A program made the translations under genes and the position numbers. This document shows, in pieces, positions 3,701 to 45,894 of a DNA stretch of 64,000 bases; within the stretch, counting starts at the first letter, position 1; the number at the start of each line of letters is the position of its first letter. The DNA lies in the NCBI GenBank assembly GCA_947623455.1, contig OX392529.1, forward strand, positions 62,805,686 to 62,869,685. Reading direction: 5' to 3'. Under the pieces are notes generated by a model, which was not told the origin of the DNA, ran no database searches, and saw nothing but the letters and a program-made list of their open reading frames with translations. Origin of the DNA: Mimachlamys varia. Taxonomy: Eukaryota > Mollusca > Bivalvia > Pectinida > Pectinidae.

Positions 3701-6700
3701 AAATAAGTGAAATACTGTCCAATGGTTTGATTAAATATGTTGATAGACAGGCGACAGGGGCTATGGTGAGGCGTAAAACCAACTTGTTCTTTGAGACAGT
3801 TTTTACCATCAGGTGTAAACCTGTGGGCATAACACAAAAAATATGTTGTCCTACTCGTAAAAAGACCAACAACTCTGCACGCTGTAACAATGCAACATAC
3901 CTTATCATATAGGGTATCGTTTTTATTATCCTGTGTTTTCTTCTCTGTCTCTTTGACACTTGATTTAGGCACATCATCCTTCAGGTAGATTTCAAACGTT
4001 TTGGAGAAGGCAATGGCAGCAAGGACACACACGATGGGGGTGAGAGTTAGCATAAGTCTCACCATAACTCCGGCGAAGTAGCTGGCAAATATGGCATACA
4101 GCACCACTGCAAGTCATAACACACAGTCAGTTACTGACGGTAACAGGTTCTAATTTACTTTATAGATCTGAATCATGGACAGAACCATTGATAACATTTA
4201 ATAGTGATCAATCTACATGCAAGTCACGAGTCTTATACTCATAAAATTAAGATTGGACTCATAGAAATTCTGAAAGTACTTCAATTTAACATTATGGGAC
4301 CCATTGTTTTCAGCAATATGTACTTAAAGGACTCATGAAAATGAATTGTAAATTAATCATTTATAACTGATTTACATCAATTGAGCAGCATCTTCACTCT
4401 CACTGCAACAAATTACTGTGTAGGTTGACCAAAAATTATGATGTCTTAAAGTTTCTTTCTGGTGAAAAGTAAAACTCTCTCAAACCTGTGAAGTACAGAT
4501 ACAGTACTTACCAAACACTCTCTCATCGTTGACATGTTTGACACAGTACCACACACCCACCGGGAAGGCACAAGCTAGGATGTGGAGGTCGAAGAAGAAG
4601 GACACCCACGTGGTAGGCTGGTGTTCCGACACGGAGGCTATGATAGGAATGTGGATCTTGGCGTAACCAGTGTCCCACAGCGAATAGAAACGCCCACTCC
4701 AAGGATGGATGTAACCTGTAAACAACAAACAACATGTGTCTCACAACAGTGTCTCACAACAGTGTCCCACAACAGTGTCCCACAGCGAATAGAAACGTCC
4801 ACTCCAAGGATGGATGTAACCTGTAAACAACAAACAACATGTGTCTCACAACAGTCTCACAACAGTGTCTCACAACAGTGTCTCACAGCGAATAGAAACG
4901 CCCACTCCAGGGATGGATGTAACCTGTAAACATCAAACAACACGTGTCTCACAACAGTGTCTCACAACAGTGTCTCACAGCGAATAGAAACGCCCACTCC
5001 AGGGATGGATGTAACCTGTAAACGTCAAACAACATGTGTCTCACAACTGTTGAAGGAGGGGATTAGGGACTGTTAAACTGAATGAAAACAAAGATCAGTT
5101 GACAGAGATGTCTAAAGTGGGACCAATTTAAGCTTGATTGTACAAACTTCCTGTTTATTTCTTTTGATGTACCTATATAAAGTTTGGGTGAGTAGCTTAC
5201 CTGCCCAGGTGAGTCCGACGACGGCCAGGAAGATGACTCCAGCGGCTGCCGTGGCAGACAGGAAGAAGAAGAGCTTGAACTCAGCTTTGGTGAGGAAAGA
5301 CTGAACGTACCTCAGGATAGCATAGGCATACAGCAGGGCAAACACACCTGTGGTACAGAAATCATAGGCATACAGCAGGGCAAACACACCTGTGGTACAG
5401 AAATCATAGGTAAACAGCAGGGCAAACACACCTGTGGTACAGAAATCATAGGTAAACAGCAGGGCAAACACACCTGTGGATACAGAAATCATAGGTAAAC
5501 AGCAGGGCAAACACACCTGTGGTACAGAAATCATAGGTATACAGCAGGGCAAACACACCTGTGGATACAGAAATCATAGGCATACAGTAGGGCAAACACA
5601 CCTGTGGAACAGAAATCATAGGTAAACAGCAGGGCAAACACACCTGTGGATACAGAAATCATAGGCATACAGTAGGGCAAACACACCTGTGGAACAGAAA
5701 TCATAGGTAAACAGCAGGGCAAACACACCTGTGGATACAGAAATCATAGGTATACAGTAGGGCAAACACACCTGTGGAACAGAAATCATAGGCATACAGT
5801 AGGGCAAACACACCTGTGGAACAGAAATCATAGGTAAACAGCAGGGCAAACACACCTGTGGTACAGAAATCATAGGCATACAGTAGGGCAAACACACCTG
5901 TGGTACAGAAATCATAGGTATACAGCAGGGCAAACACACCTGTGGATACAGAAATCATAGGCATACAGTAGGGCAAACACACCTGTGGTACAGAAATCAT
6001 AGGTATACAGCAGGGCAAACACACCTGTGGATACAGAAATCATAGGCATACAGTAGGGCAAACACACCTGTGGTACAGAAATCATAGGTAAACAGCAGGG
6101 CAAACACACCTGTGGAACAGAAATCATAGGCATACAGTAGGGCAAACACACCTGTGGTACAGAAATCATAGGTATACAGCAGGGCAAACACACCTGTGGA
6201 TACAGAAATCATAGGCATACAGTAGGGCAAACACACCTGTGGAACAGAAATCATAGGTAAACAGCAGGGCAAACACACCTGTGGATACAGAAATCATAGG
6301 CATACAGTAGGGCAAACACACCTGTGGAACAGAAATCATAGGTAAACAGCAGGGCAAACACACCTGTGGATACAGAAATCATAGGCATATAGCAGGGCAA
6401 ACACACCTGTGGAACAGAAATCATAGGTAAACAGCAGGGCAAACACACCTGTGGTACAGAAATCATAGGTATACAGCAGGGCAAACACACCTGTGGATAC
6501 AGAAATCATAGGCATACAGTAGGGCAAACACACCTGTGGTACAGAAATCATAGGCATACAGCAGGGCAAACACACCTGTGGATACAGAAATCATAGGTAT
6601 ACAGCAGGGCAAACACACCTGTGGATACAGAAATCATAGGTATACAGCAGGGCAAACACACCTGTGGATACAGAAATCATAGGTATACAGCAGGGCAAAC

Positions 6701-9700
6701 ACACCTGTGGAACAGAAATCATAGGTATACAGCAGGGCAAACACACCTGTGGAACAGAAATCATAGGTAAACAGCAGGGCAAACACACCTGTGGTACAGA
6801 AATCATAGGTATACAGCAGGGCAAACACACCTGTGGAACAGAAATCATAGGCATACAGCAGGGCAAACACACCTGTGGTACAGAAATCATAGGCATACAG
6901 CAGGGCAAACACACCTGTGGATACAGAAATCATAGGTATACAGCAGGGCAAACACACCTGTGGAACAGAAATCATAGGTATACAGCAGGGCAAACACACC
7001 TGTGGATACAGAAATCATAGGTAAACAGCAGGGCAAACACACCTGTGGATACAGAAATCATAGGTAAACAGCAGGGCAAACACACCTGTGGTACAGAAAT
7101 CATAGGTATACAGCAGGGCAAACACACCTGTGGATACAGAAATCATAGGCATACAGTAGGGCAAACACACCTGTGGATACAGAAATCATAGGTAAACAGC
7201 AGGGCAAACACACCTGTGGATACAGAAATCATAGGTAAACAGCAGGGCAAACACACCTGTGGATACAGAAATCATAGGTATACAGCAGGGCAAACACACC
7301 TGTGGATACAGAAATCATAGGTATACAGCAGGGCAAACACACCTGTGGATACAGAAATCATAGGTATACAGCAGGGCAAACACACCTGTGGATACAGAAA
7401 TCATAGGTAAACAGCAGGGCAAACACACCTGTGGATACAGAAATCATAGGTATACAGCAGGGCAAACACACCTGTGGATACAGAAATCATAGGTATACAG
7501 CAGGGCAAACACACCTGTGGATACAGAAATCATAGGTAAACAGCAGGGCAAACACACCTGTGGATACAGAAATCATAGGTATACAGCAGGGCAAACACAC
7601 CTGTGGATACAGAAATCATAGGTATACAGCAGGGCAAACACACCTGTGGATACAGAAATCATAGGTATACAGCAGGGCAAACACACCTGTGGATACAGAA
7701 ATCATAGGTATACAGCAGGGCAAACACACCTGTGGATACAGAAATCATAGGTATACAGCAGGGCAAACACACCTGTGGATACAGAAATCATAGGTATACA
7801 GCAGGGCAAACACACCTGTGGATACAGAAATCATAGGTAAACAGCAGGGCAAACACACCTGTGGATACAGAAATCATAGGTAAACAGCAGGGCAAACACA
7901 CCTGTGGATACAGAAATCATAGGTATACAGCAGGGCAAACACACCTGTGGAACAGAAATCATAGGTATACAGCAGGGCAAACACACCTGTGGATACAGAA
8001 ATCATAGGTAAACAGCAGGGCAAACACACCTGTGGATACAGAAATCATAGGTATACAGCACGGCAAACACACCTGTGGATACAAAAATCATAGGTATACA
8101 GCAGGGCAAACACATCTGTGGATACAAAAATCATAGGTATACAGCAGGGCAAACACATCTGTGGATACAAAAATCATAGGTATACAGCAGGGCAAACACA
8201 CCTGTGGATACAGAAATCATAGGTATACAGCAGGGAAAACACACCTGTGGATACAGAAATCATAGGTATACAGCAGGGCAAACACACCTGTGGATACAAA
8301 AATCATAGGTATACAGCAGGGAAAACACACCTGTGGACATAGGAATTCAAGTCCTGGTATGTCATAGCAATTCTTCAATTGAGAGTTAAAGTGCACCAAG
8401 AAAGATAACTCCATCTTCCATAGACCAGTTAACGTATAAAGGGTGTATCCCATGGTATATATTATACAGTATCTCTATGAAAGTACCTACTCAGGGGTAT
8501 ATACCAGTCAGCGTTGACTCATCCCAACAGGTAAGTTTGTGTGCTATCATACTGCCTCACCTATCGGTATGTAAGGTATGGGAGATTATTTATCTGATCA
8601 GTACATAGAGGGAGTATGGATATATGTGCCCCTTTAACACCTGACAATAGCCTTCACATCGGGTGGGTGGGGGGGGGGGGGGGGGGGGGGGGGGCAAAGA
8701 TATACTCACCAGCCGATGCCATGTACTCACTAGAGTGGTTATGGGGTGGTGGTTGCAGGTGGGTGACCTCACTCACTGATATACAGTTACCCTACACAAA
8801 GATATACTCACCAGCCGATGCCATGTGTTCACTGGTTTTGATTGGCTGGAATCCCACAAATGGAATCTGCATCGACAGAACTAGTCCCACAATGTAAAAT
8901 GTTGTGTATGCTGAAATAGGAAAAAAAGGACAGCATGAATCCTGATTCAAATATAATGTAATAATTTTATCCTCACACATAGAACGTGCGGTAGTTTTCA
9001 CAAAGACTTGACTAAAAAGACAAAACGGCAACTATACGCTCCCCATGAAACATAAAAAGCTACAAATCAGAAACAAATAGCCTATTGACTAAATATTACT
9101 GACACAGAGCCGAGCCCTGCTACATTGAACCATAGACAGTTACTAAACAGAGTTCATGAATCTTGTTTGTTCTGACACTGGTGGTGTTTAGTTTTTATAA
9201 ACATGGCAACACTATAGCTTTCATAACCAGTTAAAAAGTAGTCTGGAAACAAGGACGGTAAAAAAATACCCACGACAGAAAGTTTTTGTCCAGTGTGTGC
9301 TTACTTCTAATGGGACATGGTACTGTGAAACATTACATAACGGAATAAAAATTGTCAATATCAACAGAAAAGTCACATCTTATGACAATTCTGGAATGAC
9401 AGAGACGCCTTCGATATTCTTTGTGGGAGAACAATTTCACAATCATGATGATTAAGTGGCAAGTTTTTGATAAGAAGGCAAAATGAGTATAAAACAATGA
9501 ATTGAAACAAATTATTGTTTTCTAGTAATCAATAATACATATCTACATCAAAGCTTAAAAGGTACTGATGCAGCACTGAACATATTTAACTTGACTAGAC
9601 ACCACAAACAGTTTATTTTTCACAGAGCCAAATTTGTTTGACAGGTTGTTGAGGAATACAAACCTATGAAAATACGGCGTGAGAATCGGCCCATCAGTAG

Positions 9701-12700
9701 GAGGACGAACACATGGAGTGGGATGAGGTTGATGATGAAGACATAGCCTCCCCAGGCTGATACCTACAAACAGCAAATATATATACATCACAATGTCTGA
9801 TTAGGAGCCAATCACCGATAGTAATTCAAAACAGAAATGAAATAAAAGGCAAAAAGGATCTGTATTACCTGGATATTTCAGAAATTATTTAAGAATCAAT
9901 TCTCAAAGTCAAAGTTCACCAGACATGAGTGCAAACACAAAGCTAGCTGCAGGTGGATACTTTATCTTATATGTCATTCAGGTCTTTTAAAAGAACCATA
10001 CCAAACTGAAGAAATATCTCAGCCTTAGAACCGTTATTTGACACTTTCAACTGTAAGTAATAGTTATCTGTAAATATTTTTTCATACTTTTGTCAATGAT
10101 TCCCCCCCCCCCAACCACATATTTATAGTCACTCACCATATAGAAGTAGGAGAGGGCAGTCAGTATGGACCACATAACAGATCCAGTCTTCACCGATTTT
10201 ATCTACAAAACACGGAAAACCTGTTAAAACAATCCTGGAATAAAAATACTGACAAACTACGACTTTTACAGTTTCCGAGATAAAAGTCTGGTGATGGTTA
10301 CACCATTATACCAAAATTTTATGGCATTTTACAATAACAGATTATCTGATGGCAAACAGACAAACACACACACATACACTCAAAATTTCGTAAAACAAGG
10401 GCGAAAATTCCAGCTCCCAACACAGGCACAAATAGAGGATCTTACACGATTGTCAATGTAATATGTAATTTATTAAACGAGTTCAGTAATTTAATATTTC
10501 ACGAGCCTTTAAATAAGCGTATTAAATTATGTAACGAGTTTAATAAATTCCATATTACATTGACACGAGTGTAAGATTCTATTTATCACATAACTTATAT
10601 TTATGAGATATTACACCAACATTTTCAAATTCATTCTCTATAACAAAGGCAAATTTCTCCCTTGATGGTACAATTTTCGCTACATAGACAATCATATGAC
10701 GTCATAAAGATGTAATTTGTTTATGACATCACAATAGAGTTATTACATGTGTGTAATACCATATTTATGACATGACTGAACGGGTCAGTTATGTGATAAA
10801 TATTGTTATTCTTACTCATATGTAATATGTGAACATTATATTGTAATACTTACCCATAAGTAATATGTGAATATTCCATTGTAATACTTACCCATAAGTA
10901 ATATGTGAACATTCCATTGTAATACTTACCCATAAGTAATATGTGAACATTCCATTGTAATACTTACCCATAAGTAATATGTGAACATTCCATTGTAATA
11001 CTTACCCATAAGTAATATGTGAACATTAACGCAAATATGGCGATACCCTCGTTGTCATAACTGCCTGCTACGGATCTACTGATATACCCTGGGACTAAAA
11101 CATGAAGGTAATCATTTTGTAAGGAAATGTTTTATAATAATTTAATAATAATTCAAGGTTCTTATATACTGCTTTATCATGACCTTAAAGGGCGTCTCAA
11201 AGCGGTTCACAAATTATTATCCGTGGTTATAGGGCCTTAACAACCAGCCAATATTGTTTTCAACTCCCTGGGAAGCATACAACCGGTGCTGCTCACAGCT
11301 AGCATTCTACAATTTCTAGCACTACCCAACCACACACATACTCATTTACAGCTGAGTAGACTAGAACAAGCAGAGTAAAGTATCATGCTCAAGGGTACAA
11401 CACAAGTGCCGTGACCGGAACTCGATCTTGCAACCCTTCGATCATGAGCCCGACATTCTACCACTAGACCACCGTGCCTCCAGTTTCTTCTTCAAAATTT
11501 TGTACAGCAGTTAATTTTTAGATATTAGTAAAGTCTACATTTACATCACTTTAAGGCCCTGGTGTTTTGGCAACAAGAAATGTAAAAAAATCTCTATTAT
11601 TTTTTTATCAATTTTGTTTGGTTAACTGGGCTTAATAGTACAGATTGTTCTCCTAGTGTATGTTAAGATGCTCTTACACAGCAAATAGACATGGCAAAAA
11701 CATAGCATTTTTGATCAAGTTAGCACAGTCAAACAAAAGCTTCCCCATTCACAACCAAACTCTCCTTTTCACAAATGAACACTGGTGTGACAATGACTTA
11801 AACTTTATATGTATTTGTTTGGTGCAATACATGCACACAGTGGCTTTCTAAATTTGAAGAGTGATTAGTTCATTTACCTCAAAATGGCCAACAATGATGT
11901 ATCTAAGTGTTTATAAAAAATTGAAAGGGCAACATCCACTCAGAGGAATTGATTAATATATCCATAAATTCTAGTCTTACAATGTGACCTTATAAAATTA
12001 CCCTAGTTCACATAATACACCTCACGATACATAATACTGTACAATCAGATTGTTGTAAATACTACAACATTTACACTCTATGGTATTTACACTCTACAAC
12101 ATTTACACTCTATAACATTTACACTCTATGGTATTTACACTCTACAACATTTACACCCTACAACATTTACACTCTACAACATTTAACATTTACACCCTAC
12201 AACATTTACACTCTACAACATTTACACTCTACAACATTTACACCCTACAACATTTACACTCTACAACATTTACACTCTACAACATTTACACTCTATGGTA
12301 TTTACACTCTACAACATTTACACTCTACAACATTACACTCTACAACATTACACTCTATAACATTACACCTAACAACATTTACACTCTACAACATTTACAT
12401 TCTACGACATTACACCCTACAACATTTACATTCTACGACATTACACCCTACAACATTTACACTCTACATTTACACCCTACAACATTTACACCCTACAACA
12501 TTTACACCCTACAACATTTACACCCTACAACATTTACACTCTACAACATTTACACTCTACAACATTACACTCTACAACATTTACACTCTACAACATTACA
12601 CTCTACAACATTACACTCTACAACATTTACACTCTACAACATTTACACTCTATGGTATTTACACTCTACAACATTTACACTCTATGATATTTACACTCTA

Positions 12701-15700
12701 CATCATTTACACTCTATGGTATTTACACTCTACAACATTTACACTCTATGGTATTTACACTCTACAACATTTACACTCTACAACATTTACACTCTACAAC
12801 ATTTACACTCTACAACATTACACTCTATGGTATTTACACCCTACAACATTACACTCTACAACATTACACTCTACAACATTTACACTCTACAACATTTACA
12901 CTCTACAACATTACACTCTACAACATTTACACTCTACAACATTTACACTCTACAACATTACACTCTACAACATTTACACTCTACAACATTTACACTCTAT
13001 GGTATTTACACCCTACAACATTACACTCTACAACATTTACACTCTACAACATTTACACTCTACAACATTTACACTCTACAACATGTACACCCTACAACAT
13101 TTACACTCTATGGTATTTACACTCTACATTTACACCCTACAACATTTACACTCTACAACATTACACTCTACAACATTTACACTCTACAACATTTACATTC
13201 TATAACATTTACACTCTACAACATTTACACTCTACAACATTACACTCTACGACATTACACCCTACAACATTTACACTCTACAACATTTACACTCTATGGT
13301 ATTTACACTCTACAACACTTACACTCTACAACATTTACACTCTACGACATTACACTCTACAACATTTACACTCTATGACACTTACACTCTACAAAATTTA
13401 CACTCTACAACATTCCACTCTACGACATTTACACTCTACGACATTTACACTCTACAACATTACACTCTACAACATTTACACTCTACGACATTACACTCTA
13501 CAACATTTACACTCTTTGGTATTTACACTCTACAACATTTACACTCTATGGTATTTACACTCTACAAAATTTACACTCTACAACATTCCACTCTACGACA
13601 TTTACACTCTACGACATTTACACTCTACGACATTACACTCTACAACATTTACACTCTATGACACTTACACTCTACAAAATTTACACTCTACAACATTCCA
13701 CTCTACGACATTTACACTCTACGACATTTACACTCTACAACATTACACTCTACAACATTTACACTCTACGACATTACACTCTACAACATTTACACTCTTT
13801 GGTATTTACACTCTACAACATTTACACTCTATGGTATTTACACTCTACAACATTACACTCTACAACATTTACACTCTACAACATTACACTCTACAACATT
13901 TACACTCTACAACATTTACACTCTATGGTATTTACACTCTACAACATTTACACTCTATGGTATTTACACTCTACAACACTACACTCTACAACATTACACT
14001 CTACAACATTTACACTCTACAACATTTACACTCTACAACATGTACACCCTACAACATTTACACTCTATGGTATTTACACTCTACAACATTACACTCTACA
14101 ACATTTACACTCTACAACATTTACACTCTACAACATTACACTCTACAACATTACACTCTACACCATTACACCCTACAACATGTACACCCTACAACATTAC
14201 ACTCTACAACATTTACACTCTACAACATTTACACTCTACAACATTACACTCTACAACATGTACACTCTACACCATTACACCCTACAACATTTACACTCTA
14301 CAACATTTACACTCTACAACATGTACACTCTACACCATTACACCCTACAACATTTACACTCTACAACATTTACACCCTACAACATTTACACTCTACAACA
14401 TGTACACTCTACAACATTACACTCTACAACATTACACTCTACAACATTTACACTCTACACCATTACACTCTACAACATTACACTCTACACCATTACACCC
14501 TACAACATGTACACCCTACAACATGTACACTCTACAACATTACACTCTACAACATTTACACTCTACAACATTTACACTCTTCAACATTTACACTCTACAA
14601 CATGTACACCCTACAACATTTATACTCTATGGTATTTACACTCTACAACATTACACTCTACAACATTTACACTCTACAACATTTACACTCTACAACATGT
14701 ACACTCTACAACATTTACACTCTACACCATTACACCCTACAACATTACACTCTACAACATTTACACTCTACAACATTTACACTCTACAACATTTACACCC
14801 TACAACATTTACACTCTACAACATTTACACTCTACAACATTACACTCTACGACATTTACACTCTACAACATGTACACTCTACAACATTAACACTCTACAA
14901 CATTTACACTCTATGGTATTTACACTCTACAACATTACACTCTACAACATTTACACTCTACGACATTTACACTCTACAACATGTACACTCTACAACATTT
15001 ACACTCTACAACATGTACACTCTACAACATTTATACTCTATGGTATTTACACTCTACAACATTACACTCTACAACATTTACACTCTACGACATTTACACT
15101 CTACAACATTTACACTCTACAACATGTACACTCTACACCATTACACCCTACAACATTACACTCTACAACATTTACACTCTACAACATTTACACTCTACAA
15201 CATTTACACTCTACAACATGTACACCCTACAACATTTACACTCTATGGTATTTACACTCTACATTTACACCCTACAACATTTACACTCTACAACATTACA
15301 CTCTACAACATTTACACTCTACAACAATTACATTCTATAACATTTACACTCTACAACATTTACACTCTACAACATTACACTCTACGACATTACACCCTAC
15401 AACATTTACACTCTACAACATTTACACTCTATAACATTACACTCTACAACATTTACACTCTACAACATTTACACTCTACACCATTACACTCTACAACATT
15501 TACACTCTACAACATTTACACTCTACAACATTTACACTCTACAACATTACACTCTACAACATTTACACTCTACAACATTTACACTCTACAACATTACACT
15601 CTACAACATTTACACTCTACGACATTTACACTCTACATCATTTACACTCTACGACATTTACACTCTACGACATTTACACTCTACAACATTACACTCTACA

Positions 15701-22193: not shown

Positions 22194-22399
22194 CTTGATC
22201 AGTTCGCCACGTCCTGGCTGTCAGCCAATCAAATTACAGCAAGTGCGTCCTGGTCGTTCGGCTACCCTTTTGACTTTACCTCCATATAGTAATAAATTAA
22301 CCTGAATCATTCGAAGGAAAAAACATCAAAGGTGCACACCATTAATACCATGTGAATGTCGTGTTTTAGCCTAAGCTTGCTTGTTATCCATCAAGCTGC

Positions 22400-22760
22400 C
22401 ACTGGTCCGTATACAGTTTATCCGTCCTTAACTGTTTTTGTATTAGTTATTTTTGAAGAATTGCTGGATTGATCCTCTTGGTCCTTAGATGTGCACTTTT
22501 CGTTAAGCTTTGAAAAACAATATGGCCGACAGGCAGCCATCTTGGATTTTAAGTATGAAACTTTGTAATCGCTTTTTCTTGAGTATTACAGGATTAATCT
22601 TTTCCAAATTACACTTGAAGGTTCCAACTTGTCCTTAGTTGAGCCCTTTTGATTTTGCGACTTGTCGGTAAAACAAAATCACTGCCCAGACGGCCATATC
22701 TCTTTCCCCCCACAATCCATATATATAGTTGTGCCCTTTGTACTTTTGGACTGATCAGAA
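22400..22760. repeat. Two diverged copies of a repeat upstream of STT3B
   Basis: Two related stretches run in tandem: AATATGGCCGACAGGCAGCC with flanking GGATTGATCCTCTTGGTCCTTAG-like sequence, then CAGACGGCCATATC with AGGATTAATCTTTTCC and GTCCTTAGTTGAGCCC. They look like two old copies, about 150 bp each, of an unclassified interspersed repeat. Confidence 0.45.
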
Positions 22761-23020
22761 AAAAATGCTAACAGGCAACAATATTCTATTTGACATTTAA
22801 AGACTATTGTTGCTATTTATTTAGAGGAGTTCTCAATAAATAAGAGGAAAGAAGGGAAAAGATCCAACTGTTAAAGAACAAATTTAATGAAGGTTTTCTA
22901 TATATTTAAACACTAACCAGATATACAAATGTATATAATGCCCACTTAACAGACTTCCAACCTTATTTCTCAGAAGAGATTTTCCCTCTATACTTTTAGA
23001 CATTCTTTCCTGTTTTTTCA

Positions 23021-23092
23021 TCGTCAGAAACCCACGGTACACTTCTCTGACGTTTGCAAACGTCAGAGAAGTGTACCGTGGGTTTCCGACGA
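23021..23092. repeat. 72-bp near-perfect palindrome
   Basis: Arms of 36 bases with a single mismatch and no loop. The left arm begins TCGTCAGAAACCCACGGTAC, the centre is GACGTTTGCAAACGTC, and the right arm ends GGGTTTCCGACGA. As RNA or single-stranded DNA it would form one continuous hairpin. Confidence 0.95.
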
Positions 23093-23224
23093 TGTGTTTT
23101 TTAGACTTTATACAATAAAGCTCTCACGGATGAGTACTAAGCGTACATGAATGTAACACCTAGGATATTCAATCGTTTGCGATAGAAATTTTGTGTGATC
23201 ATTTGGTTTGTTTTTTGTTTGTTT

Positions 23225-26214: not shown

Positions 26215-26241
26215 ATGGGTATTCTAATCGCCAAATTTCGA
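26215..26241 (+). CDS. LNPK: LNPK exon 1 (start codon)
   Basis: Nine codons, MGILIAKFR, with A at -3 and G at +4, and donor CGA|GTAAGT. The start is chosen because lunaparks begin Met-Gly followed by a short basic stretch that runs straight into T-K-P-S, exactly the start of the next exon. Gly2 is the expected myristoylation site. Confidence 0.88.
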
Positions 26242-35200: not shown

Positions 35201-38200
35201 ACGCATGCTTATGACTCCTATGCACAATGGTGTGTACACCTGCCTCATTGTTTTATTGAAATGTATACTTTGTTTAGAGAAAAGTAAATTAAAAAATTAT
35301 CTAGGTCAGTAGTACAATAAGAGTTAAAAATTCCCTTAACTCATAGAAAGGTTTTGTGTCCATATCACTAGAAATTGCTTGGTACCGAGTCTCCATCACT
35401 AGAAATTCCCTGATATCGAGTCCTCATCACTAGAAATTGTTTGGTACTGAGTCCCCATCACTAGAAATTCCCTGGTACCGAGTCTCCATCCCTAGAAATT
35501 CCTTGATACCAAGTCTCCATCACTAGAAATTCCCTGGTACCGAGTCTCCATCTCTAGAAATTCCTTGGTACCAAGTCTCCATCACTAGAAATTCCCTGGT
35601 ACCGAGTCTCCATCACTGGAAATTCTCTGGTAACGAATCTCCATCTCTAGAAATTCCTTGGTACTGAGTCTCCATCACTAGAAAATCCCTTCTACAGAGT
35701 CTCCATCACTGGAAATTCTCTGGTACCGAGTCTCCATCACTAGAAATTCCCTTCTACAGACTCTCCATCACTAGAAATTCCCTGGTACAAAGTCTCCATC
35801 ACTGGAAATTCCTTGGTACCGAGTCTCCATCACTAGAATTCCCTGGTACCGAGTCTCCATCTCTAGAAATTGCCTGGTACCGAGTCTCCACTAGAAATTC
35901 CCTGGTACCGAGTCTTCATCACTAGAAATTGCCTGGTACCGAGTTTCCATCACTAGAAATTCCTTGGTACCGAGTCTCCATCACTAGAAATCTCTGGTAC
36001 CGAGTCTCCATCACTAGAAATTCTCTGGTACCGAGTCTCCATCCCTAGAAATTCCCTGGTACCGAGTCTCCATCAATAGAAATTCCCTGGTACCGAGTCT
36101 CCATCAATAGAAATTCCCTAGTACCGAGTATCCATCACTAGAAATTCCCTGGTACCGAGTCTCCATCACTAGAAATTCCTTGGTACCGAGTCTCCATCAC
36201 TAGAAATTCCCTGGTACTGAGTCTCCATCACTAGAAATTCCCTGGTACTGAGTATCCATCACTAGAAATTCCCTGGTACTGAGTCTCCATCACTAGAAAT
36301 TCCCTGGTACTGAGTCTCCATCACTAGAAATTCTCCTATATCAGGACTTCGATAATTTGATGACTTGAATTGTGGGGAGTTGATTGCATATCTGTATTTA
36401 GTTCTGTACTTGCATGATTGTGTTTTTGATTTTGAGTGAAGTTTGTTAATTTTGCCTTTTTTTTAAAATCATACTCATATTTACCCAGAAGTGCAGTGTA
36501 TTTGCTTGAAATGCTGTATGTCCACCGCACATTTTTGCCATTAAGAGCTTAACACAGGCTTCTATATCTGGCTGTAAAAACTCCTGATCTGAGCCGATAT
36601 TTCAGCTCATCTTCAGACAGTAGGCTGTTTAAACCTTCATTCATCTATGGTTCATCACTAATCAGTCTTATGTAGAGGTTGTAAAGCTAGGGTTGCAGTA
36701 TTGAAATAACTAGACCAAGTCTTCAGTGGCTGGTATGCATCTTCTATCAGATGTATAAAAAAAAACAGGAAAAGAAACTCCAAATGATATAAATTATAAA
36801 AGTTATACCAAATATTTTCTGTCCAAACACGCCTAAAATTATAATGCAAATTGATCACAAATTCAAATTATTTTGCACAATATCTGCATGAATTTATATA
36901 TCTATCACATAATTACGCCCTGAAATACACCACCATATAAACTGTGTGTTACATGTGACTTCAGACAGGACTCCCGGGCCTCCTCTGTCCTGTAGGTATT
37001 AAACTGTATGTTACATGTGACTTCACACAGGACTCCCGGGCCTCCTCTGTCCTGTAGGTATTAAACTGTGTGTTACATGTGACTTCACACAGGACTCCCG
37101 GGCCTCCTCTGTCCTGTAGGTATTAAACTGTATGTTACATGTGACTTCAGACAGGACTCCCGGACCTCCTCTGTCCTGTAGGTATTAAACTGTATGTTAC
37201 ATGTGACTTCAGACAGGACTCCCGGGCCTCCTCTGTCCTGTAGGTATTAAACTGTATGTTACATGTGACTTCAGACAGGACTCCCGGACCTCCTCTGTCC
37301 TGTAGGTATTAAACTGTATGTTACATGTGACTTCAGACAGGACTCCCGGGCCTCCTCTGTCCTGTAGGTATTAAACTGTATGTTACATGTGACTTCAGAC
37401 AGGACTCCCGGACCTCCTCTGTCCTGTAGGTATTAAACTGTATGTTACATGTGACTTCAGACAGAACTCCCGGACCTCCTCTGTCCTGTAGGTATTAAAC
37501 TGTATGTTACATGTGACTTCAGACAGAACTCCCGGACCTCCTCTGTCCTGTAGGTATTAAACTGTATGTTACATGTGACTTCAGACAGAACTCCCGGACC
37601 TCCTCTGTCCTGTAGGTATTAAACTGTATGTTACATGTGACTTCAGACAGAACTCTCGGACCTCCTCTGTCCTGTAGGTATTAAACTGTATGTTACATGT
37701 GACTTCACACAGGACTCCCGGGCCTCCTCTGCCCTGTAGATATTTAACTGTATGTTACATGTGACTTCAGACAGGACTCTCGGGCATCCTCTGTCCTGTA
37801 GGTATTAAACTGTATGTTACATGTGACTTCACACAGGACTCCCGGGCCTCCTCTGTCCTGTAGGTATTAAACTGTATGTTACATGTGACTTCACACAGGA
37901 CTCCCGGACCTCCTCTGTCCTGTAGGTATTAAACTGTATGTTACATGTGACTTCAGACAGGACTCTCGGGCATCCTCTGTCCTGTAGGTATTAAACTGTA
38001 TGTTACATGTGACTTCAGGCAGGACCCCCGGGCCTCCTCTTCCCCGCCCTATTCTGCCTCGGGAGAGGAGCACCACTGATAGACTACTCGAGTACCTCGT
38101 GGGAGATGGTCCTCAGAATAGGTTCGCTCTGATTTGTCGATACTGTCACAGCCACAACGGAATGTCACTCAAGGAGGAATTTGAGTATCTAAGTGAGTAT

Positions 38201-41200
38201 ATCTGTGTCTGAGTATCTAAATGAGTATATCTATATCTGAGTATCTAAGTGAGTATATCAGTGTGTGAGTATCTAAGTGAGTATATCAGTGTCTAAGTAT
38301 CTAAGCGAGTATATCTGTGTCTGAGTATCTAAGTGAGTATATCAGTGTGTGAATATCTAAGTGAGTATATCAGTGTCTGAGTATCTAAGTTAGTATATCA
38401 GTGTGTGAGTATCTAAGTGAGTATATCATTGTCTGAGTATCTAAGTGAGTATATCAGTGTCTGAGTATATAAGTTAGTATATCAGTGTCGGAGTATCTAA
38501 GTTAGTATATCAATGTCTGAGTATCTAAGTGAGTATATCAGTGTCTGAGTATCTAAGTGAGTATATCAGTGTCAAAGTATCTAAGTGAGTATATCTGTGT
38601 GTGAGTATCTAAGTGAGTATATCAGTGTCTGAATATCTAAGTGAGTATATCAGTGTCTAAGTATCTAAGTGAGTATATCAGTGTCTAAGTATCTAAGTGA
38701 GTATATCAGTGTGTGAGTATCTAAGTGAGTTTATCTATGTCTAAGAATCTAAGTGAGTATATCAGTGTCTAAGTGAGTATATCAGTGTCTAAGTATCTAA
38801 GTGAGTATATCAGTGTCTAAGTATCTAAGTGAGTATATCAGTGTCTGAGTATCTAAGTGTGTATATCAGTGTGTGAGTATCTAAGTGAGTATATCAGTGT
38901 GTGAGTATATAAGTGAGTATATCAGTGTGTGAGTATCTAAGTGAGTATATCAATGTCTGAGTATCTAAGTGTGTATATCAATGTCTGAGTATCTAAGTGA
39001 GTTTATCATTGTCTGAGTATCTAAGTGAGTATATCAGTGTGTGAGTATCTAAGTGAGTATATCAGTGTCTGAGTATCTAAGTGAGTATATCAGTGTGTGA
39101 GTATCTAAGTGAGTATATCAATGTCTAAGTATCTAAGTGAGTATATCAGTGTGTGAGTATATAAGTGAGTATATCAGTGTGTGAATATCTAAGTGAGTAT
39201 ATCAGTGTCTGAGTATCTAAGTGAGTATATCAATGTCTGAGTATCTAAGTGAGTATATCAGTGTCTGAGTATCTAAGTGAGTATATCAGTGTCAAGGTAT
39301 CTAAGTGAGTATATCATTGTCTGAGTATCTAAGTGAGTATATCAGTGTCAAAGTATCTAAGTGAGTATATCATTGTCTAAGTATCTAAGTGGGTATATCA
39401 GTGTCTGAGTATCTAAGTTAGTATATCAATGTCTGAGTATCTAAGTGAGTATATCAGTGTGTGAGTATCTAAGTGAGTATATCAGTGTCTAAGTATCTTA
39501 GTGAGTATATCAGTGTCTGAGTATCTAAGTGAGTATATCATTGTCTAAGTATCTAAGTGAGTATATCATTGTCTGAGTATCTAAGTGAGTATATCAGTGT
39601 GTGAGTATCTAAGTGAGTATATCAGTGTCTGAGTATCTAAGTGAGTATATCAGTGTGTGAGTATCTAAGTGAGTATATCAATGTCTAAGTATCTAAGTGA
39701 GTATATCAGTGTGTGAGTATATAAGTTAGTATATCAGTGTGTGAGTATCTAAGTGAGTATATCAGTGTCTGAGTATCTAAGTGAGTATATCAATGTCTGA
39801 GTATCTAAGTGAGTATATCAGTGTCTGAGTATCTAAGTGAGTATATCAGTGTCAAGGTATCTAAGTGAGTATATCATTGTCTGAGTATCTAAGTGAGTAT
39901 ATCAGTGTCAAAGTATCTAAGTGAGTATATCATTGTCTAAGTATCTAAGTGAGTATATCAATGTCTGAGTATCTGAGTGAGTATATCAGTGTCTGAGTAT
40001 CTAAGTGAGTATATCAGTGTGTGAGTATATAAGTGAGTATATCATTGTCTGAGTATCTAAGTGAGTATATCAGTGTCTGAGTATCTAAGTGAGTATATCA
40101 GTGTCAAAGTATCTAAGTGAGTATATCATTGTCTGAGTATCTAAGTGTGTATATCAGTGTCTGGGTATCTAATTGAGTATATTTGTGTCTGAGTATCTAG
40201 TGTGTATATCAGTGTCAAAGTATCTAAGTGAGTATATCAGTGTCTGAGTATCTAAGTGTGTATATCAATGTCAAAGTATCTAAGTGAGTATATCAGTGTG
40301 TGAGTATCTAAGTTAGTATATCAGTGTCTGAGTATCTAAGTGGGTATATCAGTGTGTGAGTAGCTAAGTGGGTATATCAATGTCTGAGTATCTAAGTGAG
40401 TATATCAGTGTCTGAGTATCTAAGTGAGTATATCAGTGTCTGAGTATCTAAGTGAGTATATTTGTGTCTGAGTATCTAAGTGGGTATATCAATGTCTGAG
40501 TATCTAAGTGTGTATATCAGTGTCTGAGTATCTAAGTGAGTATATCAGTGTCAAAGTATCTAAGTGAGTATATCAGTGTCTGAGTATCTAAGTGAGTATA
40601 TCAGTGTGTGAGTATCTAAGTGTGTATATCAGTGTCCAAGTATCTAAGTGAGTATATCAGTGTGTGAGTATCTAAGTGTGTATATCAGTGTGTGAGTATC
40701 TAAGTGGGTATATCAGTGTCTGAGTATCTAAGTGAGTATATCAGTGTCTGAGTATCTAAGTGAGTATATCAGTGTGTGAGTATCTAAGTAAGTATATCAG
40801 TGTCTGAGTATCTAAGTGAGTATATCAGTGTGTGAGTATCTAAGTGAGTATATCAGTGTCTGAGTATCTAAGTGAGTATATCAGTGTGTGAGTATCTAAG
40901 TGGGTATATCAGTGTGTGAGTATCTAAGTGAGTATATCAGTGTGTGAGTATCTAAGTGAGTATATCAGTGTCAGAGTATCTAAGTAAGTATATCAGTGTC
41001 TGAGTATCTAAGTGAGTATATCAGTGTGTGAGTATCTAAGTGGGTATATCAGTGTCTGAGTATCTAAGTGAGTAAATCAGTATCTGAGTATCTTAAGTGA
41101 GTAAATTTATGTCTGAGTATCTAAGTGAGTATATTTATGTCTGAGTATCTAAGTGAGTATATCAGTGTCTGAGTATATCAGTGTTTGAGTATCTAAGTGA

Positions 41201-44200
41201 GTATATCAGTATCTGAGTATCTAAGTGAGTATATCAATGTCTGAGTATCTAAGTTAGTATATCAGTGTCTGAGTATATAAGTTAGTATATCAGTGTGTGA
41301 GTATCTAAGTGAGTATATCAGTGTGTGAGTATCTAAGTGAGTATATCAGTGTCTGAGTATCTAAGTTAGTATATCAGTGTCTGAGTATCTAAGTTAGTAT
41401 ATCAGTGTCTGAGTATATAAGTTAGTATATCAGTGTCGGAGTATCTAAGTGAGTATATCAATGTCTGAGTATCTAAGTGTGTATATCAATGTCTGAGTAT
41501 CTTAGTGAGTATATCATTGTCTAAGTATCTAAGTGAATATATCAGTGTCTGAGTATCTAAGTGAGTATATCAGTGTCTGAGTATCTCAGTGAGTATATCA
41601 GTGTCTGAGTATCTAAGTGAGTATATCAATGTCTGAGTATCTAAGTGAGTATATCAGTGTCAAAGTATCTAAGTTAGTATATCAATGTCTGAGTATCTAA
41701 GTGGGTATATCAATGTCTGAGTATCTAAGTGAGTATATCAGTGTCAAAGTATCTAAGTGAGTATATCAATGTCTGAGTATCTAAGTGAGTATATCAGTGT
41801 CAAAGTATCTAAGTGAGTATATCAGTGTGTGAGTATCTAAGTGGGTATATCAGTGTGTGAGTATCTAAGTGAGTATATCAGTGTCTGAGTATCTAAGTGA
41901 GTATATCAGTGTCAGAGTATCTAAGTAAGTATATCAGTGTCTGAGTATCTAAGTGAGTATATCAGTGTGTGAGTATCTAAGTGGGTATATCAGTGTCTGA
42001 GTATCTAAGTGAGTAAATCAGTATCTGAGTATCTTAAGTGAGTAAATTTATGTCTGAGTATCTAAGTGAGTATATTTATGTCTGAGTATCTAAGTGAGTA
42101 TATCAGTGTCTGAGTATATCAGTGTTTGAGTATCTAAGTGAGTATATCAGTATCTGAGTATCTAAGTGAGTATATCAATGTCTGAGTATCTAAGTTAGTA
42201 TATCAGTGTCTGAGTATATAAGTTAGTATATCAGTGTGTGAGTATCTAAGTGAGTATATCAGTGTGTGAGTATCTAAGTGAGTATATCAGTGTCTGAGTA
42301 TCTAAGTTAGTATATCAGTGTCTGAGTATCTAAGTTAGTATATCAGTGTCTGAGTATATAAGTTAGTATATCAGTGTCGGAGTATCTAAGTGAGTATATC
42401 AATGTCTGAGTATCTAAGTGTGTATATCAATGTCTGAGTATCTTAGTGAGTATATCATTGTCTAAGTATCTAAGTGAATATATCAGTGTCTGAGTATCTA
42501 AGTGAGTATATCAGTGTCTGAGTATCTCAGTGAGTATATCAGTGTCTGAGTATCTAAGTGAGTATATCAATGTCTGAGTATCTAAGTGAGTATATCAGTG
42601 TCAAAGTATCTAAGTTAGTATATCAATGTCTGAGTATCTAAGTGGGTATATCAATGTCTGAGTATCTAAGTGAGTATATCAGTGTCAAAGTATCTAAGTG
42701 AGTATATCAGTGTCTGAGTATCTAAGTGTGTATATCAGTGTCAAAGTATCTAAGTGAGTATATCAGTTTGTGAGTATCTAAGTGAGTATACCAGTGTCTG
42801 GGTATCTAAGTGAGTATATTTGTGTCTGAGTATCTAAGTGTGTATATCAGTGTCAAAGTATCTAAGTGAGTATATCAATGTGTGAGTATCAAAGTGTGTA
42901 TATCAGTGTCAAAGTATCTAAGTGAGTATATCAATGTCTGAGTATCTAAGTGTGTATATCAGTGTCAAAGTATCTAAGTTAGTATATCAGTGTGTGAGTA
43001 TCTAAGTTAGTATATCAGTGTCTGCGTATCTAAGTGAGTATACCAGTGTCTGAGTATCTAAGTTAGTATATCAGTGTCTGAGTATCTAAGTAAGTATACC
43101 AGTGTCTGAGTATCTAAGTGAGTATATCTGTGTCTGAGTATCTAAGTGAGTATACCAGTGTCTGAGTATCTAAGTTAGTATATCTGTGTCTGAGTATCTA
43201 AGTGAGTATATCAGTGTGTGAGTATCTAAGTGAGTATATCAGTGTCTGAGTATCTAAGTGTGTATATCAGTGTCCAAGTATCTAAGTGAGTATATCAGTG
43301 TGTGAGTATATCAGTGTGTGAGTATCTAGGTGAGTATACCAGTGTCTGAGTATCTAAGTGAGTATATCAGTGTCTGAGTATCTAAGTGTGTATATCAGTG
43401 TGTGAGTATCTAAGTGGGTATATCAGTGTCTGAGTATCTAAGTGAGTATATCAGTGTCTGAGTATCTAAGTGAGTATATCAGTGTCAGAGTATCTAAGTA
43501 AGTATATCAGTGTCTGAGTATCTAAGTGAGTATATCAGTGTGTGAGTATCTAAGTGGGTATATCAGTGTCTGAGTATCTAAGTGAGTATATCAGTATCTG
43601 AGTATCTTAAGTGAGTAAATTTATGTCTGAGTATCTAAGTGAGTATATCAGTGTCTGAGTATATCAGTGTTTGAGTATCTAAGTGAGTATATCAATGTCT
43701 GAGTATCTAAATGAGTATATATATATCTGAGTATCTAAGTTAGTATATCAATGTCTGATTATCTAAGAGAGTATATCAGTGTAAGTATCTAAGTGAGTAT
43801 ATCAATGTCTAAGTATATAAGTGAGTATATCAATGTCTGAGTATCTAAGTGAGTATATCAATGTCTGAGTATCTAAGTGAGTATATCAGTGTCTGAGTAT
43901 CTAAGTGAGTATATCAGTGTCTAAGTATCTAAGTGAGTATATCAGTGTCTGAGTATGTAAGTGAGTATATCTAATAATCTATGTCTAAGTATCTAAGTTA
44001 GTATATCTATGTCTGAGTATCTAAGTGAGTATATCAGTGTCTGAGTATCTAAGTGAGTATATCAGTGTTTGAGTATCTAAGTGAGTATATCTTTATCTGA
44101 GTATCTAAGTGAGTATATTTTTATCTGAGTATGTAAATGAGTATATCTTTATCTGAGTATCTAAGTGAGTATATCTTTATCTGAGTATGTAAATGAGTAT

Positions 44201-45894
44201 ATCTTTATCTGAGTATCTAAGTGAGTATATCTTTATCTGAGTATCTAAGTGAGTATATGTTTGTCACTCAGTTTTCAGCCATTTTCTTTAAAGCTTTGTA
44301 AGTTTTAATATATTAATATGATGAAAATTGTACTCTTTTTGTGACATTGAATGTTTCCATTAATTTTGCTTTCTGATACAGTAATGTCTTTCACATAGGC
44401 ATGGCTCGAGTGTACATGTTTCCCCCCCCCCCCCCTTAACACTCCTGTTATATATATCCTCCCCTGTTGTAGGTTTCCGCTGTTGCTATTGCTACCAGAT
44501 GAACCTAGCTAAGAAACAGAAGCCTTACGCTCCAAAACTGGACACTGTTACTCCAACAACTGGTGCTCGATCCTTACAGAAGTCGTCAGGTACAGGTAAA
44601 CATCCACATACTTGAATAGGTTACTAAAACAACCCAGGTTTAGTGTTGCAGTATCTTTGCTGTAGTATTCAAGTGAGGTAGCACTATAAGATGCTGTTGT
44701 AAAGACAGTCTCACTACAAACAGAACACAATACATCTCTAACACACACAGGCATCCACACATAAGGAGATATTAGCCAGGTGGCATATTACTAGTAGTTA
44801 GACCCTTATAAGGTAACTCCTGCAAATTTCTCAGAATTCTATATACTACATATAAATCATATTGACTTTATAAATTATATATGTATACCTGGTATGTACT
44901 GGAAAGTGCTTTCGGCTGGTCTATGTAAGGAAGATAGGAGGCTATATCAGATGTTGTATATTATTATATGACATAGATATGGTGTTAAGCTGGTAGCTTT
45001 CATTGTAAATACAACCTTGACATACTTTTAATGTCATATGGTACATAGCTGGTAGTTTCCTTGGAAGGAGTAAAACTACCGTAAGTTTACAAATAAAAAT
45101 GATGTTGGCCTACTCGAAGGTCACAAGGGTCAACAACTTCTCCTGAAATACAGAGGACATGATATATGGATGGCAGCTTCCTTGGAAGGAGCTGAACAAA
45201 GTTTGCAAAAAAAAAAAAAAAAAACAGAAAAACAATGATCTACTTTCAAGGTCACAGGGGTCAAATATGTCAAAACCTTCAAATGACTTCTTCTGAATAC
45301 CAAAAGGTCTAGAGATATGATATTTGTCTGGTAACTTCCTGCAAAGAAGCAAACAAAATTTGAGAATAAAAATAATCTTTCAAAGTTAAACTATTAGCTT
45401 CAGGTCAGTTTCATTTATGGTCCTCAATTCCTCAACTCACGATACCAAAGATACTTGATTTGTCTTCTGTAGGTGTTTCAAAGCCTGATGATGATGATGA
45501 TGGTGATGAAGAAGACGAAGAAAGTGATTATACAGAAGAAGGTAGTGAAGAAAGCTCTGAAGAAGTAAATGGGGACAATATTGTCACAACCAATAAGCAT
45601 AATACAGAGTCTCTGGAAAGAGTGGCAGAGGTGAAGGGTCAGGTGGCAGAGGTGAAGGGTCAGGGGGCAGAGGTGAGGGGTCAGACAGAGTCCAGAGGTC
45701 AAACAGATTCCAGAGGTCAGGCAGCAGCAGGAGGTGAAGAAGTAGAAAGCCTTACTAGTTCAACAGATAACATAGAAGATGATATGGAAGTAGACGGAGT
45801 GCATGTTTTAGAAGAAGAAGTGGAATCAGATAATGGGAAGAAAGTCGAGGAAACTAGAGTGGATGAAATGCCAAAGGCAGAAGTGTCAGAGTAA
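26215..45894 (+). CDS. LNPK: Lunapark, ER three-way-junction protein (10 exons, complete CDS)
   Basis: Lunapark stabilises three-way junctions of the tubular endoplasmic reticulum. The coding exons are 26215-26241, 30216-30257, 30542-30729, 31648-31706, 32002-32042, 32740-32826, 34899-35229, 38019-38192, 44473-44595 and 45473-45894: 1494 bases, 497 residues plus TAA. Order of parts: Met-Gly (G2 is the family's N-myristoylation site), short coiled coil, membrane hairpin (about 43-66 and 75-98), second coiled coil (106-146), Pro/Thr-rich linker (149-275), DRLLEYLVGDGPQNRFALIC and a zinc ribbon C298-x2-C301...C320-x2-C323, then an acidic tail. Vertebrate LNPK is somewhat shorter, about 430 residues. 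Introns 6 to 8 are dominated by tandem arrays, and exon 8 is flanked on both sides by copies of its own splice sites. Confidence 0.96.
29033..29487. mobile_element. TA-flanked pogo/Tc1-like MITE
   Basis: The ends CAGTGGACTCCACTTAATAT and, reverse-complemented, CAGTGTACTCTTCTTTATAT match imperfectly, and TA sits on both sides. The internal motif TTAATATCA(C/T) is repeated several times near both ends. TA target and CAGT termini point to the IS630-Tc1-mariner group (pogo-like). No transposase remains. Confidence 0.75.
29828..30080 (+). mobile_element. SINE-like element with triplicated tRNA head
   Basis: The A-box-like unit GGTGGCC(A/G)A..GGTTAA(A/G)GTGTCTGACA occurs three times in tandem (starts near 29839, 29898 and 29959). 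The units are separated by TACCACTAGCCCTCTACCAC-type spacers. After the last comes GGTCATACGATCGAGGCC (B-box-like) and a body with CACCCAGGTACTGG. Confidence 0.6.
30216..30257 (+). CDS. LNPK: LNPK exon 2
   Basis: Fourteen codons, TKPSTTDVLEQIEK (10-23), phase 0 at both ends. Acceptor TTTTGTAG|ACC and donor AAG|GTAAAA. It matches the conserved lunapark N-terminal segment that starts the first coiled coil. Confidence 0.94.
30542..30729 (+). CDS. LNPK: LNPK exon 3 (membrane hairpin)
   Basis: Encodes 24-85 plus two bases of L86: DITSLQKFRLRNQQQQKKFI, then GCLILYSIVLYIMAALALYF and VYFPPDWKNRLLYSSPLLVF. The first membrane helix (43-66), the short luminal P-P-D-W turn and most of the second helix are here. 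Acceptor TTTTCAG|GAC and donor TT|GTGAGT. Confidence 0.95.
30799..31158. mobile_element. hAT-like MITE in LNPK intron 3
   Basis: The ends CAGGGCTTTATGACCCC and GGGGG-TATCAGG-type complement (CTGATAAAGCCCTG) form an imperfect terminal inverted repeat. CAGGG termini are typical of hAT elements. The interior repeats TTCCCAATTT(C) in several places. An 8-bp target duplication could not be made out clearly. Confidence 0.55.
31648..31706 (+). CDS. LNPK: LNPK exon 4
   Basis: Completes L86 and encodes IWLIKKFLHWYFVKRITKN (87-105) plus one base of D106, the end of the second membrane helix and the cytosolic basic flank. Acceptor ATTACAG|A and donor AATG|GTAAGA. Confidence 0.94.
32002..32042 (+). CDS. 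LNPK: LNPK exon 5
   Basis: Completes D106 and encodes LALNELREKRKQI (107-119), the start of the second coiled coil. Acceptor TTGCAG|AT and donor ATT|GTAAGT. Confidence 0.94.
32430..32620. repeat. Four 50-60 bp tandem repeats in LNPK intron 5
   Basis: Units share TCACATTGTAT(T/C)(T/C)GTC and CTTGTCAGAAAA(G/A)T with variations (TTTTCGCATTGTATCCGTCA). The copies are diverged. Confidence 0.75.
32740..32826 (+). CDS. LNPK: LNPK exon 6
   Basis: Twenty-nine codons (120-148): LEEVMEKETYKKAREILQKF then DPARFKELE. LEEVMEKETYK is the most conserved part of the lunapark coiled coil. Acceptor GTGCCAG|TTG and donor GAA|GTGAGT. Confidence 0.95.
32836..33665. repeat. About 30-bp tandem array starting at the LNPK exon 6 donor
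   Basis: About 27 units on the core ATCTAGTTGTCAACTCCA(G/C)T with a variable ACAGTAATAT spacer. The first unit begins about 10 bases after the donor (GTGAGTGATGTTATCTAG), so the array abuts the exon without containing the donor itself. Confidence 0.93.
33666..34420 (+). other. LNPK intron 6 middle, no recognised feature
   Basis: AT-rich intron. GCGAACCTACGAAAATCGCA and a related CGCAAAAATCTGAGAG/CACAAAAATTGC stretch near 34180-34310 suggest the two ends of an old inverted-repeat element, which is not resolved. Confidence 0.35.
34421..34884. repeat. 18-bp tandem array ending at the LNPK exon 7 acceptor
   Basis: About 25 units of TTAATTCTATTACAATAG, with longer variants carrying TTAAATGATATTC and TTAATTCTTTTAC. 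The last unit ends about 14 bases before the acceptor GTTGACAG|CC, so the exon-proximal intron end is made of the array. Each unit ends in an AG. Confidence 0.94.
34899..35229 (+). CDS. LNPK: LNPK exon 7 (Pro/Thr-rich linker)
   Basis: Encodes 149-258 plus one base of G259. It is rich in Pro, Thr, Gly and Arg and contains a triple G-V/M-T-P-G repeat (203-223: GVTPGMRPGVTPG then QRPSMTPG). This matches the disordered, poorly conserved linker of lunaparks. Acceptor GACAG|CCT and donor AATG|GTGTGT. Confidence 0.9.
35340..36332. repeat. 31-bp tandem array in LNPK intron 7
   Basis: About 32 units on the core CATCACTAGAAATTCCCTGG and TACCGAGTCTC. It starts about 110 bases after the exon 7 donor and shows no exon sequence. 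Confidence 0.94.
36925..38018 (+). repeat. 17 extra copies of the LNPK exon 8 acceptor (62-bp unit)
   Basis: The true acceptor GTGACTTCAG|GCAGGACCC at 38018/38019 is the eighteenth member of a perfectly phased 62-bp array: first-base analogues run from 36965 in steps of 62 to 38019. Each unit carries TGTTACATGTGACTTCA(G/C), then (A)CAGGACTCCCGGGCC and TCCTCTG, matching the first 25 or so exon bases, and TCCTGTAGGTATTAAACTGT. Use of a decoy would read GAC AGG ACT ... TGT AGG TAT TAA, a premature stop. Confidence 0.96.
38019..38192 (+). CDS. LNPK: LNPK exon 8 (first half of zinc ribbon)
   Basis: Completes G259 and encodes 260-316 plus one base of S317: RTPGPPLPRPILPRERSTTD, RLLEYLVGDGPQNRFALICR and YCHSHNGMSLKEEFEYL. 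C298 and C301 are the first zinc pair. GPPLPRPILPRER and VGDGPQNR are highly conserved in lunaparks and confirm the start despite 17 upstream acceptor copies. The donor is CTAA|GTGAGT. Read-through meets TGA at 38208-38210. Confidence 0.96.
38193..44262 (+). repeat. About 217 copies of the LNPK exon 8 donor (28-bp unit)
   Basis: The unit is GAGTATCTAAGTGAGTATAT plus CAGTGTCT (28 bp), a direct continuation of the exon end GAGTATCTAA|GTGAGTATAT. Nearly every unit therefore carries a consensus-like 5' splice site, AA|GTGAGT. The first downstream copy has AA|ATGAGT, but the next (38248) is intact. Variants TTAGTA, GTGTA, CAAAG and ATATAAG occur in blocks. A 941-bp higher-order repeat is visible, with 41070 onward matching 42011 onward. 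Confidence 0.96.
44263..44472 (+). other. End of LNPK intron 8
   Basis: Unique sequence between the 28-bp array and exon 9. It contains a run of 14 C (44422-44435) that contributes pyrimidines upstream of the acceptor CCCCTGTTGTAG|GT. Confidence 0.6.
44473..44595 (+). CDS. LNPK: LNPK exon 9 (second half of zinc ribbon)
   Basis: Completes S317 and encodes 318-357 plus one base of G358: FRCCYCYQMNLAKKQKPYAP then KLDTVTPTTGARSLQKSSGT. C320 and C323 complete the CxxC...CxxC zinc ribbon. Acceptor GTTGTAG|GT and donor ACAG|GTAAAC. Confidence 0.94.
44596..45472 (+). other. LNPK intron 9
   Basis: Holds three diverged tandem copies of a block of about 110-120 bp marked by GGTAGTTTCCTTGGAAGGAG, CAAAGTTTGCA/TAAGTTTACAAATAAAAAT and AAGGTCACAAGGGTCAA (about 45045-45360). 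There is a run of 18 A near 45208. Confidence 0.65.
45473..45894 (+). CDS. LNPK: LNPK exon 10 (acidic tail and stop)
   Basis: Completes G358 and encodes 359-497 and TAA (45892-45894). It starts VSKPDDDDDGDEEDEESDYT, an Asp/Glu-rich stretch. Then come heptad-like repeats VAEVKGQ, VAEVKGQ, GAEVRGQ, TESRGQ, TDSRGQ (about 408-439), encoded by a 21-bp coding minisatellite, and a second acidic stretch. Acidic, low-complexity C termini are usual in lunaparks. The exact repeat is not conserved in the family as far as I know. Acceptor TTCTGTAG|GT. Confidence 0.9.

Follow-up and report, generated by a model that had tools for sequence, protein, structure and literature searches.

Tandem arrays whose units straddle an exon-intron border have been described under the name of mirages in a few amphioxus genes. 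In the portions of this literature that are available, the globin mirages have units of 150-160 bp, present in 6 or 3 copies according to haplotype (PMC3087553), and those of Adh3 have units of 10-72 bp (PMC3087553, citing Canestro et al. 2002), while further examples are given for PGBD5 and troponin C (PMC3902484). They occur at donors as well as acceptors, many copies carry AG or GT, and regular splicing is reported (PMC3087553); haplotype and somatic instability of their length is reported as well. A related structure is found in human segmental duplications, where the available text describes variable minisatellites of ~30 bp at exon-intron boundaries, with 27 intron modifications; these arrays have ~4 copies and are mainly exon repeats, maybe spliced out as novel introns, and both forms are often transcribed (PMC2812944). 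In a potato RdRp gene, a duplication spanning an intron-exon border is described as the source of a gained intron (PMC4974935). The portions available of papers on a C. elegans minisatellite and on earthworm metallothionein contained no border-spanning repeats that we could find, and in the open-access literature we found no report of border-spanning arrays in molluscs.

Here, the mirage-type structure is extended to molluscs by an analysis of two neighbouring genes of the scallop Mimachlamys varia. As in amphioxus, the scallop units span exon-intron borders, mostly keep AG or GT, and affect both kinds of border. Unlike the amphioxus mirages, they belong to a bivalve mollusc, hence to another phylum, one exon (LNPK exon 8) lies between two arrays, and a rate of occurrence is available from blindly chosen exons. 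The largest scallop array has ~215 copies over 6 kb, compared with 3 or 6 units in one amphioxus globin gene, a comparison that makes no claim about Adh3. A model in which minisatellites arise from short, non-contiguous direct repeats was reportedly proposed by Haber and Louis in 1998; it shares with the scallop arrays a unit bounded by short direct repeats, and differs in being a general one, for any DNA, that makes no connection with splice borders. Turri et al. in 1995 are said to have described a minisatellite in a human interferon-induced gene from which several splice donors are used; its unit, like those of the scallop, carries a splice donor, and the case concerns one gene. As far as the available text goes, the human boundary repeats resemble the scallop arrays in that a minisatellite at an exon-intron boundary alters the extent of an intron, whereas in the scallop existing introns are lengthened by copies with the native splice site. 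The potato and scallop cases share a border-crossing tandem duplication that carries splice signals, which in potato produced a new intron within coding sequence and in the scallop makes an existing intron grow (PMC4974935, from the portion available). An earlier sequence-only reading of this DNA had taken intron expansion by repeated junction copying to be undescribed; this claim to novelty fails, because the structure is already known from the amphioxus mirages (PMC3087553, PMC3902484) and from human border repeats (PMC2812944).

The window, that is, the whole stretch of 64,000 nucleotides analysed, contains STT3B (554-22193, minus strand; coding exons 1-13, the gene extending beyond the left end) and LNPK (lunapark; 26215-45894, plus strand; 10 coding exons), which lie divergently, back to back, on chromosome 3. 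In the exon models, the internal borders of both genes are GT/AG and consistent in phase, and the joined frames are open; the LNPK protein has 73% identity to Pecten maximus lunapark. Human STT3B (6S7T) aligns with residues 15-583 of the scallop protein without insertion at the array-bearing borders. Both LNPK exon 8 borders are kept in 5/5 scallop homologues, again without inserts there, and part of exon 7 is absent in two Argopecten isoforms among these five. LNPK exon 10 has short tandem repeats in frame at 45622-45724, a region variable among scallop homologues (P0001-P0003). According to the portion of the genome report available, the assembly was built from 44-fold PacBio HiFi and Hi-C data, and the alternate haplotype is GCA_947622925.1 (PMC11252643).

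All 43 borders of the two genes were searched for further copies, using a 32-mer of 16 exon and 16 intron bases and requiring at least 26/32 identical positions. Copies were found at six borders, the same six that the sequence-only reading had named, every copy lying within 8 kb; no further junction copy was found by this test at the other 37. Three donors and three acceptors are affected, and the copies sit on the intron side of their border. The STT3B exon 5 donor array (10802-11027, minus strand) has a 38-bp unit of 21 exon bases followed by GTAAGT, with 5 extra copies, or 6 near-full copies in a full-array alignment, in which, here as below, the true junction is included. The donor of STT3B exon 8 (8812-8910) has a single extra copy (8695-8731, minus strand), 102 bp from the true donor. 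The STT3B exon 9 acceptor array (5321-8345, minus strand) has a unit of 43 bp (42 in some copies), made of 15-16 intron bases ending in CACAG and 27 exon bases; of ~70 extra copies, 26 pass the strict cut-off of the 32-mer test, and 71 near-full copies were aligned. The STT3B exon 10 acceptor array (4668-5047, minus strand) has a ~103-bp unit, 48 exon bases inside the array and 3 extra copies by the 32-mer test. LNPK exon 8 (38019-38192, plus strand) has a junction array at each side. The acceptor array (36938-38040, plus strand) has a 62-bp unit with 22 exon bases, and 17 extra copies by the 32-mer test or 17 near-full copies by alignment; the donor array (38182-44258, plus strand) has a 28-bp unit of 11 exon bases followed by GTGAGTAT, and 173 extra copies or 215 near-full copies, respectively.

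These counts bear out the earlier estimates of about 70 copies at the STT3B exon 9 acceptor and about 217 at the LNPK exon 8 donor, and the range from one 102-bp duplication (STT3B exon 8) to 6 kb (LNPK exon 8 donor) was likewise described correctly; array sizes may plausibly represent stages of one process. When four array units were aligned to their junctions, 0/1000 shuffles reached the observed score. Units of different borders are unlike each other, each being built from exon and intron bases of its own gene, and copies within an array differ mutually, with a mean variation of 2-6% per position.

Five neighbouring arrays have no trace of a junction in the same kind of comparison (1000 shuffles each). 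These are a 22-bp array 38 bp beyond the STT3B exon 12 donor (845-3059, minus strand), a 16-bp array 22 bp beyond the STT3B exon 4 donor (12062-16366, minus strand), a 30-bp array 12 bp beyond the LNPK exon 6 donor (32839-33670, plus strand), a 31-bp array 134 bp beyond the LNPK exon 7 donor (35364-36333, plus strand), and an 18-bp array ending 18 bp upstream of the LNPK exon 7 acceptor (34419-34881, plus strand), which comes nearest, with 56/1000 shuffles as good. The idea that the arrays at exons 4, 6, 7 and 12 are decayed junction copies was rejected, the unit-junction match being no better than that of shuffles.

Most of the copied splice sites are intact. GT is present in 6/6 near-full copies of the STT3B exon 5 donor and 208/215 of the LNPK exon 8 donor, and AG in 71/71 copies of the STT3B exon 9 acceptor (true sites included), in all 3 extra copies of the STT3B exon 10 acceptor, and in 12/17 copies of the LNPK exon 8 acceptor. 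In three arrays the splice dinucleotides are less variable than the remaining positions; in the LNPK exon 8 acceptor array they are more variable (0.147 at AG, 0.023 elsewhere), and this loss of AG is a hint of decay at decoys. Splice sites were scored with a small weight matrix for which 19 donors and 18 acceptors in the window served as reference. Among intact donor decoys, 4/5 (STT3B exon 5), 1/1 (STT3B exon 8) and 146/203 (LNPK exon 8) score at least as high as the true site. Acceptor decoys are mostly lower, reaching the true score in 26/70 (STT3B exon 9), 1/3 (STT3B exon 10) and 0/12 (LNPK exon 8) cases, which may favour recognition of the true acceptor. The true acceptors of LNPK exon 8 (-0.7) and STT3B exon 9 (5.4) score lower than any of the 18 reference acceptors (6.9-16.3); these low scores speak against easy recognition, and the border calls at the two sites therefore rest on protein homology. 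If used, 291/294 intact decoys tested would give a premature stop, and only the three innermost STT3B exon 9 acceptor copies (+42, +84 and +126) stay open. Since the homologous proteins have no inserts at the array borders, splicing very probably uses the copy that adjoins the exon. An array open in frame occurs at a myosin locus (L022:3944-4322), where the 75-bp unit of a donor array encodes 25 residues, five times over, and skipping of the donor would add protein repeats.

The arrays are best read as junction-spanning minisatellites of the mirage type, to which we assign a probability of about 0.78. The initial event is a tandem duplication of a segment of ~30-100 bp that by chance crosses a splice border, a step legible in the sequence of the arrays. 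Its likely trigger is mispairing of short direct repeats flanking the border. The duplicate would then expand and homogenise as a minisatellite, through slippage or unequal exchange, as the pattern of copies suggests, while splicing probably stays with the exon-touching copy, as protein homology indicates. With the exon-touching copy kept, further copies would turn into intron, leaving the protein unchanged and adding a row of decoys, and the arrays would be tolerated because the exon-nearest site is retained. Direct repeats (TCACATA, AGTGA, CCTATG, TGTGRGACAC and TGAGTAT) were noted at five of the six window breakpoints, flanking the copied segment and in some cases offset by a few bases, the sixth being unclear; read by eye and with no chance model, they suggest, rather than show, mispairing of short repeats. 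Full-array alignment revealed near-identical copies with shared variants within arrays.

A wider process, beyond these two genes, was assessed in the window and in a blind sample. Five of the 15 intronic arrays detected by TRF in the window straddle a border, compared with 0.97 expected at random placement (P 0.0008), and ten straddle none; this P value is post hoc, the window having been selected for the very feature tested, and the blind sample is the fairer test. The latter comprises 187 exon ends of exons picked regardless of repeats, 147 from myosin-head and 40 from kinesin sequences. The myosin-head part includes all 74 matches, with 147 borders placed and 1 unplaced. The kinesin part includes 20 of 131 matches, taken from the first 26 listed after skipping two that were apparently intronless and four with several stops, seemingly spanning introns; here stretches of ~300 bp per side (94 bp at one end) were used, and the exon ends are match ends, not exactly placed. 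Cases were classified by hand after the arrays were seen, the border positions of the L013 donor and of the L039 donor at 2733-2975 were set by hand, and doubtful cases (L036 twice, L013) were excluded from the count. Eight or more exon bases are copied at the L012 acceptor and the L022, L026, L046 and L039 donors in the myosin part, and at the L070 and L081 donors and the L082 acceptor in the kinesin part. A second L039 donor and both the acceptor and the donor of L041 have 6-7 exon bases copied. As in the window, the junction copies lie on the intron side.

Tandem repeats make up 20.3% of the 200 kb around the myosin genes, similar to the 21.7% given for another scallop in the available text of PMC10225492. 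The random expectation was derived from array density in twenty regions of 10 kb each (71 arrays; 162 kb remain after collapse), which predicts straddling at 0.0112 of borders for at least 8 exon bases and 0.0129 for at least 6. At 8/187 blind ends the copies include the splice site and no fewer than 8 exon bases, compared with 2.09 expected (P 0.0015); when 6 exon bases suffice, the count is 11/187, compared with 2.41 (P 0.00005). Because array-poor exons could make the expectation too low, it was raised by a tenth (P 0.0026 for 8/187) and by a quarter (P 0.0056 for 8/187, 0.0003 for 11/187) as a sensitivity check. The excess resides in the donors, at 6/94 compared with 1.05 expected (P 0.0008); blind acceptors have no excess, at 2/93 compared with 1.04 (P 0.28). 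Thus, the event marks ~4% of blind-sampled exon ends, with donors above the random-placement prediction, and the blind sample lends support to a wider process. The overall enrichment of junction-bearing repeats in the sample is about fourfold. Seeding by splice junctions is only partly supported as a general rule: it agrees with the donor excess, but not with the acceptor counts or with the ten window arrays that straddle no border. A concentration of arrays close to borders, seen in the window (9/15 within 40 bp), was dropped as a general feature, as it did not recur on the intron side in the myosin sample, where the first 40 bp gave 1/66 donors (one more, L013, after hand correction) and 2/71 acceptors.

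The most serious competing explanation is that junctions play no special part, and that abundant young minisatellites cross some borders by chance. Although unlikely, it deserves real weight: arrays are dense, with 71 in 200 kb and many clear of borders, the cases are few, and the blind acceptors are as chance predicts. The profile of array edges points both ways. Just inside the exon at donors it reaches 0.051 per 40 bp (~0.041 without the misplaced L013 donor), compared with 0.015-0.025 in the donor intron bins, and yet the profile is noisy, one acceptor intron bin (80-160 bp, 0.044) being as high as that donor value. What tells against chance is the surplus of blind cases, in the whole sample and in its donors, joined by the post hoc count in the window. 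Far less probable is an assembly artefact in which the same reads were joined repeatedly at borders; long arrays are difficult to assemble, but the HiFi and Hi-C data cited above (PMC11252643, in the portion available), the mutual differences of 2-6% between copies, and the recurrence of the same anatomy at unrelated loci all disagree with it.

Two further explanations assign the arrays a different nature. They could be working regulatory elements or intermediates of intron gain, whose additional sites are occasionally spliced, with slower splicing, in-frame repeats in the protein or the birth of new exons as possible effects. The mostly intact decoy dinucleotides and the existence of open in-frame decoys (the three STT3B exon 9 acceptor copies and the 75-bp unit of L022) agree with this, as do the available accounts of mirage-derived intron gain proposed for amphioxus globins (PMC3087553), of intron gain in one potato gene (PMC4974935) and of border repeats that reportedly change the splicing of duplicated human genes (PMC2812944). 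It is nevertheless improbable, given the premature stops from nearly all intact decoys, the homologous proteins free of inserts, and a dinucleotide variation that falls below that of the remaining positions in three arrays and exceeds it in the fourth. Least credible of all is a mobile satellite family inserting beside splice sites: several arrays do lie within 40 bp of borders with which they share no sequence, but the junction arrays consist of their own gene's bases, and their units differ from border to border.

On the preferred reading of junction-spanning minisatellites, border duplication is one route by which existing introns lengthen while the protein remains untouched, and its frequency can now be estimated: in the small blind sample, ~4% of exon ends are affected. 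The arrays amount to natural experiments in which a true site, donor or acceptor, stands beside up to ~215 near-identical rivals, and ordinary RNA-seq could use them to ask how the true splice site is picked. The short duplications are possible material for intron gain or for in-frame exon growth. A bolder and somewhat doubtful extension would make scallop splice donors hot spots where minisatellites arise, because the exon close by offers the donor motif short direct repeats, with thousands of introns grown by border copying. If this were true, the choice of the exon-touching copy among up to ~215 near-equals would put exon definition to a natural test across the whole genome.

A genome search with a donor-pair pattern returned 356 matches, compared with 16 for the reversed pattern, with ~100 places listed; matches inside one array are not independent, so the search serves as illustration only. 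An apparent exon was present at the array start in 2/10 inspected loci (L055 and L059). At L055 the apparent exon ends in a donor array (705-801) whose unit is 19 bp long, and the exon has a putative resemblance to a ligand-gated ion channel subunit.

Several other repeats were observed in the window. STT3B intron 1 contains a tandem array of 157 bp x 7.9 (18140-19510), edged by short inverted ends similar to AGCTCACCTGG / CAGGTGAGC and resembling the interior of a non-autonomous mobile element. Between STT3B and LNPK lies a near-perfect 76-bp palindrome (23019-23094; 74/76 positions). Downstream of LNPK, an inverted repeat whose arms are separated by a short spacer was noted by eye at 49876-49930, and an 11-kb array with a 30-bp unit and ~368 copies (52693-63752) follows shortly after a possible terminal exon with a stop codon (52541-52630).
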